Shown here in pieces: positions 19,995-22,385 of a DNA stretch of 64,000 nucleotides. The notes under the pieces were generated by a model. That model was not told where the DNA came from, ran no database searches, and saw only the letters and a program-made list of their open reading frames with translations. How positions within the stretch are numbered: position 1 is the stretch's first letter; each line of letters starts with the position of its first letter. This stretch comes from Desulfitobacterium dichloroeliminans LMG P-21439 (GTDB taxonomy: Bacteria > Bacillota > Desulfitobacteriia > Desulfitobacteriales > Desulfitobacteriaceae), in NCBI RefSeq assembly GCF_000243135.2, contig NC_019903.1, positions 348,001 through 412,000 of the forward strand, read 5' to 3'. A program made the translations under genes and the position numbers.

Positions 19995-21467
19995 ATGATA
20001 AATGAGCGAGAAATAGTAAAAGCCGGATGGAATTTCGACAATACCTACCCTGATCTTCCTGATTCTCTTTATACGAAGCTCGGCCCAGTCCCCGTCAATT
20101 CGCCGAAGTTAGTTATTCTCAATGAAAGCTTGGCAGAGAGCTTGGGGCTTGATGCTCAGTTGTTAAAAAGCGATGAAGGTGTAATGGTGTTTGCCGGGAA
20201 CATGCTTCCTGAAGGTGCTGAACCTCTGGCCCAAGCCTATGCCGGGCATCAATTCGGTCGTTTTACCATGTTAGGTGATGGCAGGGCCTTATTGCTGGGC
20301 GAACAGGTGACACCCGAGGGTGAGCGCTACGATATCCAGCTCAAAGGTTCAGGTAAAACACCCTACTCGCGCGGAGGGGACGGTCGGGCGGCACTTGGCC
20401 CCATGCTTCGTGAATACATCATTAGTGAGGCAATGTTTGGGTTGGGGATTCCTACAACTCGCTCCTTAGCGGTAGTTACAACCGGTGAGACAATTGTTCG
20501 TGAAACTATGTTGCCGGGTGCGATACTCACCCGTATAGCCGCTAGTCATATTCGTGTGGGTACCTTTCAATATGTTTCACAGTGGGGTACCGTCGAGGAT
20601 CTCCGGACCCTAGCCGAATATACTTTAAAACGTCATTTTGGACCAAGGGAAGCTGAAAACCCCTACCTAATGTTGCTTCAGGGAGTCATTAAACGTCAAG
20701 CTTCACTCCTTGCTCACTGGCAGCTGGTTGGATTTATTCACGGGGTAATGAATACCGATAACATGGTGGTTAGTGGGGAGACCATTGATTATGGTCCTTG
20801 CGCCTTTATGGATACTTATGATCCTGCCACCGTCTTTAGTTCGATTGATCGTCAAGGTCGGTATGCCTATAGGAATCAACCCTATATGGCCGCTTGGAAT
20901 CTCGCCAGATTGGCTGAAACCCTTATGCCATTACTCAGTGCAGATGAGGAGGAGGCTCTTAAAATTGCAGAAGCCGAGGTTTCCCAGTTTTTTGAACTGT
21001 ACGAGAAAAATTGGCAGGCTGGGATGAGGGCTAAGCTGGGGCTATTTAATGAAGAGGCGGAGGATGAGTCTCTAATTAAGGACCTTCTTGATTTAATGGA
21101 AAAGCATCAGGCAGATTATACGAATACCTTCCTTGCCCTAACCTTTGATAAACCGGGGGATTCAACTTTATTTAACAGTGGGGAATTCGTCGAGTGGAAG
21201 GAAAAGTGGCTAGGGAGAATAAACAGACAACAGGAATCGACGCAGTCCTCACACCAGTTGATGAGAAACAGCAATCCTGCTGTCATCCCACGTAACCACC
21301 AGGTAGAGGCTGTCTTGCAAGCTGCAGTGGAAGAGGGAGATTATCGCAGTTTAAGACAACTTCTCCAGGTTCTTGCGCAACCTTATGCTCACTTGCCGGA
21401 ACAACTTGAATATAGTAACCCGCCGGAGCCTTCTAGCTGCGCTTATCGCACCTTCTGTGGCACCTAA
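19995..21467 (+). CDS. selO: Protein adenylyltransferase SelO (YdiU/UPF0061)
   Basis: 490 residues, full family length. SelO is a pseudokinase-fold enzyme that transfers AMP to Ser/Thr/Tyr of proteins in redox stress. Signatures present: [51 protein letters not shown] and DYGPCAF. The extreme C-terminus is the usual YRTFCGT, with Cys where eukaryotic SelO often has selenocysteine. AAAAGGAGATAACT precedes ATG 19995. It stands alone between the two-component genes and a methyltransferase. Confidence 0.93.
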
Positions 21468-22103: not shown

Positions 22104-22154
22104 AAATAGGATAAAACGTCATACTAAATACATCTCATGAAAGGAGAATTTAGT

Positions 22155-22385
22155 ATGAAGAATGTAACCATGTTTACAACCAAAACCTGACCGCATTGTA
22201 CAATCGCGAAGAAGTTTCTTTCGCAGAACAATATTCCCTATGTTGAAAGGGATGTCAATGTAGATTCTGAGGCGCTTATGGAACTGCAACGAAGAAAAAT
22301 AGGTGGAGTACCCACGTTCTTTATTGACGAAGAAGTTGTGGTAGGATTTGATAAGAATAAAATTCTAGAGCTAGTTGAGCACTAG
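22155..22385 (+). CDS. Selenocysteine-containing glutaredoxin (UPHC active site)
   Basis: Read with UGA at codon 12 (22188-22190) as selenocysteine, this is an intact 76-residue glutaredoxin: MKNVTMFTTKT-U-PHC, then KKFLSQNNIPYVERDVN, the cis-proline GGVPTFF, VVGFDKN and a last helix. The normal motif is CPxC, so UGA stands exactly at the catalytic first cysteine. AAAGGAG lies eight bases before ATG 22155. A SECIS-like hairpin follows the UGA. Such proteins reduce disulfides. The stop TAG overlaps the stop of the convergent methyltransferase gene. The alternative, a nonsense-mutated pseudogene, is less likely because everything else is intact. Confidence 0.85.
22191..22232 (+). promoter_or_regulatory. 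Candidate bacterial SECIS hairpin
   Basis: Starting just after the UGA: ATTGT (22195-22199) can pair with ACAAT (22228-22232), and GCGAA (22206-22210) pairs with TTCGC (22220-22224) around a GAAGTTTCT loop with G-T near the top. Bacterial SECIS elements lie immediately downstream of the UGA and show a G in the apical loop, as here. Confidence 0.6.

Follow-up and report, generated by a model that had tools for sequence, protein, structure and literature searches.

A glutaredoxin-like reading frame interrupted by TGA exactly where the catalytic cysteine is expected raises the question of whether it is a pseudogene or an intact gene in which UGA is read as selenocysteine (Sec). The frame was found in the genome of Desulfitobacterium dichloroeliminans LMG P-21439 (NC_019903.1). 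The window, i.e., the whole stretch of DNA analysed, comprises 64,000 nucleotides (positions 348,001 to 412,000 of the forward strand), and the following features are numbered from its first nucleotide:

22155–22385, + strand: putative selenocysteine glutaredoxin gene, 76 aa plus the TAG stop (Pfam, homologues, AF2 model)
22140–22146, + strand: Shine–Dalgarno-like AAAGGAG, 8 nt before the ATG (sequence)
22188–22190, + strand: TGA at codon 12, the first residue of UPHC, predicted to be read as selenocysteine (TGA and Cys codons in the family)
22197–22199, + strand: TGT, resolving cysteine of UPHC, residue 15 (invariant alignment column)
22206–22224, + strand: bSECIS hairpin with apical stem 22206–22212/22217–22224 and loop AGUU 22213–22216 (folding and family comparison)
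22311–22313, + strand: cis-proline codon of GGVP53TFF (invariant P53)
22383–22385, + strand: TAG stop of the glutaredoxin, overlapping the TAG of a convergent methyltransferase

The conceptual translation of 22155–22385 (+) is MKNVTMFTTKT*PHCTIAKKFLSQNNIPYVERDVNVDSEALMELQRRKIGGVPTFFIDEEVVVGFDKNKILELVEH*, and the TGA at 22188–22190, which occupies the first position of the CPxC motif (UPHC), is the only internal stop in the 76-residue frame. The first-pass annotation had reported these coordinates, the single in-frame TGA, the GGVPTFF segment, the last helix, the stop and the ribosome site, and all of them are as it described. A GGAG resembling the ribosome site of the window gene precedes most homologues. 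At the other end, the methyltransferase gene on the minus strand terminates with TAG at 22382–22384, so both stops share the CTAG at 22382–22385. The frame exceeds the gathering cut-off of the Pfam Glutaredoxin family (PF00462; 57.9 bits against 22.9), and it is the top match to the glutaredoxin family in its own genome, with one TGA inside.

The AF2 model of the protein (pLDDT 93.3) has the secondary-structure order E-H-E-H-E-E-H. The best PDB match found by Foldseek is the dithiol form of glutaredoxin-1 (cGrx1) of Clostridium (Alkaliphilus) oremlandii (7c10; 49% identity, TMq 0.93), for which structures 7c10, 7c12 and 7c13 are available. cGrx1, the nearest known protein, is a native selenoprotein with a U/CPXC site (PMC7642778). 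The two proteins share the U/CPHC active site and the short single-domain form, and the clostridial Sec-glutaredoxin parallel drawn at first reading was thus borne out. The protein combines a thioredoxin-type fold (AF2/Foldseek), a CPxC-type site and cis-Pro, and its in-frame UGA is aligned with Cys of homologues. Judged on all sequence criteria, the window gene is a glutaredoxin and a bacterial selenoprotein.

Homologues were surveyed in 74 genomes of the taxonomic order, 42 of which had a match; nearly all of the strongest matches contain one TGA. In the collected set of 42 sequences from the order, which includes the window gene, codon 12 is TGA in 38 sequences and TGT or TGC (Cys) in four, and no other residue occurs at the catalytic position in the alignment that the first-pass annotation had suggested. 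Together with the Pfam score of 57.9 bits, this distribution indicates that the frame is not a chance one. No internal stops other than the codon-12 TGA were found in the collected sequences; the disrupted frames in close homologues that were expected if the first reading had been wrong are therefore not seen. Residues P13, C15 and P53 are invariant. With an E-value limit of 1e-10, a phylum-wide draw yielded matches in 130 of 398 genomes, and many of these matches contain a single TGA.

If the TGA had arisen by mutation and inactivated what was once a Cys glutaredoxin, the interrupted frame and the absence of the gene from the three congeners examined, one of them 82% complete, would be easy to understand. 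However, the identical TGA recurs throughout the collected set, the window frame has no other lesion, and the genome possesses complete Sec machinery (see below). Moreover, dN/dS is approximately 0.16 after the TGA versus 0.24 before it (Nei–Gojobori, ratio of medians), these figures being rough because synonymous sites are near saturation. The segment downstream of the TGA is under purifying selection. We consider a pseudogene extremely improbable; very probably, what standard gene calling may take for a pseudogene with one stop is a functional selenoprotein gene.

All four Cys forms (L055, L056, L057 and L058) are paralogues of the long type described below, in which CPSC or CSSC replaces UPxC. 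Genomes G009 and G014 each carry both Sec and Cys forms. These four paralogues, which lack the SECIS element, offer a natural Sec-to-Cys comparison.

The genome, represented by one contig of 3,624,449 bases (99.99% complete), was scanned for Sec machinery, whose absence had been named in the first-pass annotation as evidence against its reading, in particular that of selC or selB. All four genes are present. The tRNA-Sec gene (selC) is located at 3028665–3028757 of the genome (71.3 bits; anticodon tca by ARAGORN) in the same cluster as selA (605 bits) and selB, whose score is over the cut-off, and selD (382 bits) is outside this cluster. A formate dehydrogenase-like (FdhA-type) gene has an in-frame TGA where such genes usually encode Sec (DHCART-U-HAPTV). 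A second FdhA-like gene, L054 (around 3033368–3034126 of the genome, minus strand), contains an in-frame TGA in the context EHQARI-U-HAPTV and lies close to the selA–selB–selC cluster. With these two genes, the Sec machinery has conventional clients, and the organism very probably makes use of selenocysteine. As for selD, it was ruled out as a selenoprotein gene itself, there being no stop inside its frame. Another molybdopterin oxidoreductase match, at G000:C1:1711076-1711882, has one TGA inside.

A SECIS-like hairpin directly after the UGA had also been claimed. The hairpin is indeed present; its position was misjudged, as 22 nt separate the AGUU loop from the UGA. The criterion applied was that of a published bSECIS model (PMC13188914): a loop of 3–9 nt with G in one of the first two positions, a stem of 4–16 bp, a distance of 16–37 nt from the UGA and an MFE of at most −7.5 kcal/mol. 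The hairpin of the window gene (−7.7 kcal/mol) agrees with this model in full, with a background pass rate of 9.7% (234 of the 2409 TGAs in the window). On folding, its stability proved ordinary when this gene is taken alone (z from −0.28 to −1.13 against dinucleotide shuffles). Given this and the background rate, the hairpin was dropped as stand-alone evidence. An Rfam search gave no relevant match.

The RNA evidence is strong only family-wide. At the strict cut-off of −7.5 kcal/mol, 19 of the 38 Sec forms and none of the four Cys forms pass the bSECIS model, and at a cut-off of −6, 37 of the 38 Sec forms pass, versus a background of 12.9%; all such family-wide counts are inflated by shared ancestry and are not independent tests. 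When synonymous codon replacement serves as the reference, the Sec forms average a z of −1.54 and the Cys forms one of +0.54. Codon usage within the hairpin region is correspondingly uniform: of the 36 forms with alanine at codon 18, 35 use GCG; all 38 Sec forms have TTT at codon 21; and TCG encodes the serine at codon 23 in 35 of the 37 forms that have one there, versus 11 of the 144 serines elsewhere in these genes. RNAalifold kept seven pairs, one of them compensatory, for the order-level set and predicted no consensus structure for the phylum-wide diverse set; for this reason, the covariation counts are based on the hairpin as defined above. Among 26 diverse Sec sequences, stem pairing is 86%, falling to at most 71% when the partner is slid, and compensatory changes affect four pairs (10 cells), a level matched by none of 500 shuffles. 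Pair 20–36 is broken in all four Cys forms. Across the family, codon choice and compensatory changes thus maintain the hairpin, and each of the four Cys forms has lost it. The analysis contributes well over thirty Sec-glutaredoxins belonging to a single family, with an aligned SECIS element and measured covariation.

In principle, the sequence on its own would also allow the ribosome to pass the TGA by near-cognate suppression, with Trp or Cys inserted instead of Sec. Against this stand the position of the TGA, which is the catalytic Cys/Sec site, and the conserved SECIS-type hairpin, which is lost in the Cys forms. In addition, the true stop of the gene is also TGA in 11 relatives, which argues against general read-through. 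The terminal TGA is followed by a hairpin passing the bSECIS model in two of these 11 genes. Thus, the hairpin is one likely discriminator between Sec and stop, although the surroundings of the terminal TGAs do not provide a clean negative control. Each of these eleven genes contains one UGA for Sec and another for termination, which gives studies of recoding a useful internal control. Read-through without Sec can practically be set aside; the UGA at 22188 very probably encodes selenocysteine at the active site of an intact gene.

As for the placement of the protein among known families, Sec-glutaredoxins have been listed for Geobacter, Moorella and Alkaliphilus (PMC1794560) and recorded from the Sargasso Sea (PMC1088965). 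The window protein resembles them at the level of the UxxC site, and since they already constitute a recognised bacterial selenoprotein family, the Sec reading is less surprising. The best NCBIfam model is TIGR02196 GlrX_YruB, which covers nearly the whole length of the protein with 73.6 bits, under the curated cut-off of 88.55. NCBIfam NF041212 Uxx_star and the UXX-star selenoprotein families 1–3 likewise comprise glutaredoxin-like proteins, whose first active-site residue is Sec; the window protein scores 47.9 bits with the former (66 required) and is far under the cut-offs of the other UXX-star families. Unlike the Uxx_star families, it retains the resolving Cys (UxxC). Because its scores are under the YruB and Uxx_star curated cut-offs, the protein is not filed in those models.

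We are almost certain, on sequence grounds, that the locus encodes a selenoprotein glutaredoxin of 76 residues, of the same type as C. oremlandii Grx1, with Sec12 inserted by means of the hairpin and SelB. The computational results establish the frame, the fold, the machinery and the conservation of the hairpin; for Sec insertion, chemistry, substrate and reductant we infer the following scheme. The mRNA hairpin at 22206–22224 would recruit SelB carrying Sec-tRNA at the UGA at 22188, and selenocysteine would be inserted at position 12. The protein would then adopt the small glutaredoxin fold (beta-alpha-beta-alpha-beta-beta-alpha), in which Sec12 would attack a disulfide or another oxidised thiol in the substrate and Cys15 would resolve the mixed selenosulfide. 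A glutamate–cysteine ligase of the PF04262 type was not found in the genome, the search having covered the PF04262 route to GSH; a flavoprotein disulfide reductase may therefore recycle the glutaredoxin in place of glutathione. In clostridia, YruB-like proteins receive electrons from thioredoxin reductase-like flavoproteins and supply them to peroxiredoxins. Plausible candidate substrates are a peroxiredoxin or the MsrA–MsrB fusion protein of the window genome. The latter consists of a Cys-type MsrA with an MsrB-like part following in frame, the MsrB label coming from the sequence and not from a model search, whereas the partner proposed for cGrx1 is a selenoprotein MsrA (PMC7642778).

The genomic context gives no indication of function, since no conserved gene neighbourhood was found across 27 loci. 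A SelO-family gene (PF02696, 385 bits) is located at 19995–21467 (+) of the window, 0.7 kb upstream of the glutaredoxin gene and in the same direction; it is not a conserved neighbour of Sec-glutaredoxins elsewhere. The glutaredoxin GrxA is a target of AMPylation by SelO in E. coli (PMC12663964).

When comparing the relatives, two architectures can be noted: proteins of 75–78 residues and proteins of 110–117 residues with an added CxxC...CPxC segment. The match of this segment to Pfam Zn_ribbon_4 (E 2.4e-6) is just below the cut-off (27.8 against 30.3 bits), for which reason it is labelled zinc-ribbon-like. The window protein ends with LVEH, where the long forms run on as LVDHR. In the tree, the window gene is nearest to the long forms and outside the short clade of Desulfosporosinus; however, the topology test did not reject a single short clade (p-AU 0.314). 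No zinc-ribbon remnant was found after the glutaredoxin TAG in any forward frame. That the window lineage lost the zinc ribbon independently is not established, because one short clade also fits; ribbon loss in this lineage is a reasonable but unproved assumption.

It could further be supposed that Sec is inserted but that the short form is a truncated vestige of the fused one, its function lost. This would agree with the long forms being its neighbours in the tree and with the frame ending exactly where the ribbon would start, in an overlap with the convergent gene. Nevertheless, ribbonless forms of 75 residues are common and are conserved in Desulfosporosinus, cGrx1 is likewise short, the topology test leaves room for a common short clade (AU p 0.31), and the window domain exhibits no decay. 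A vestige is thus very unlikely, and a functional short glutaredoxin is the preferred reading. A more tentative idea, which we regard as possible but rather doubtful, is that the gene belongs to a clade of Sec-glutaredoxin/ribbon fusions in which the selenol acts on, or is controlled by, a metal-bound thiolate cluster (e.g., as a redox/metal switch), the window gene having lost its ribbon by rearrangement against the convergent methyltransferase.

A full-text search of a limited literature collection found no published description of a Sec-glutaredoxin/zinc-ribbon-like fusion. Such fusions, with the zinc-ribbon-like segment at the C-terminus, were observed in L062 (6291–6635), L063 (6893–7228), L069 (6883–7218) and others, from many genomes across the order and the phylum, and they provide a lead for selenoprotein annotation.
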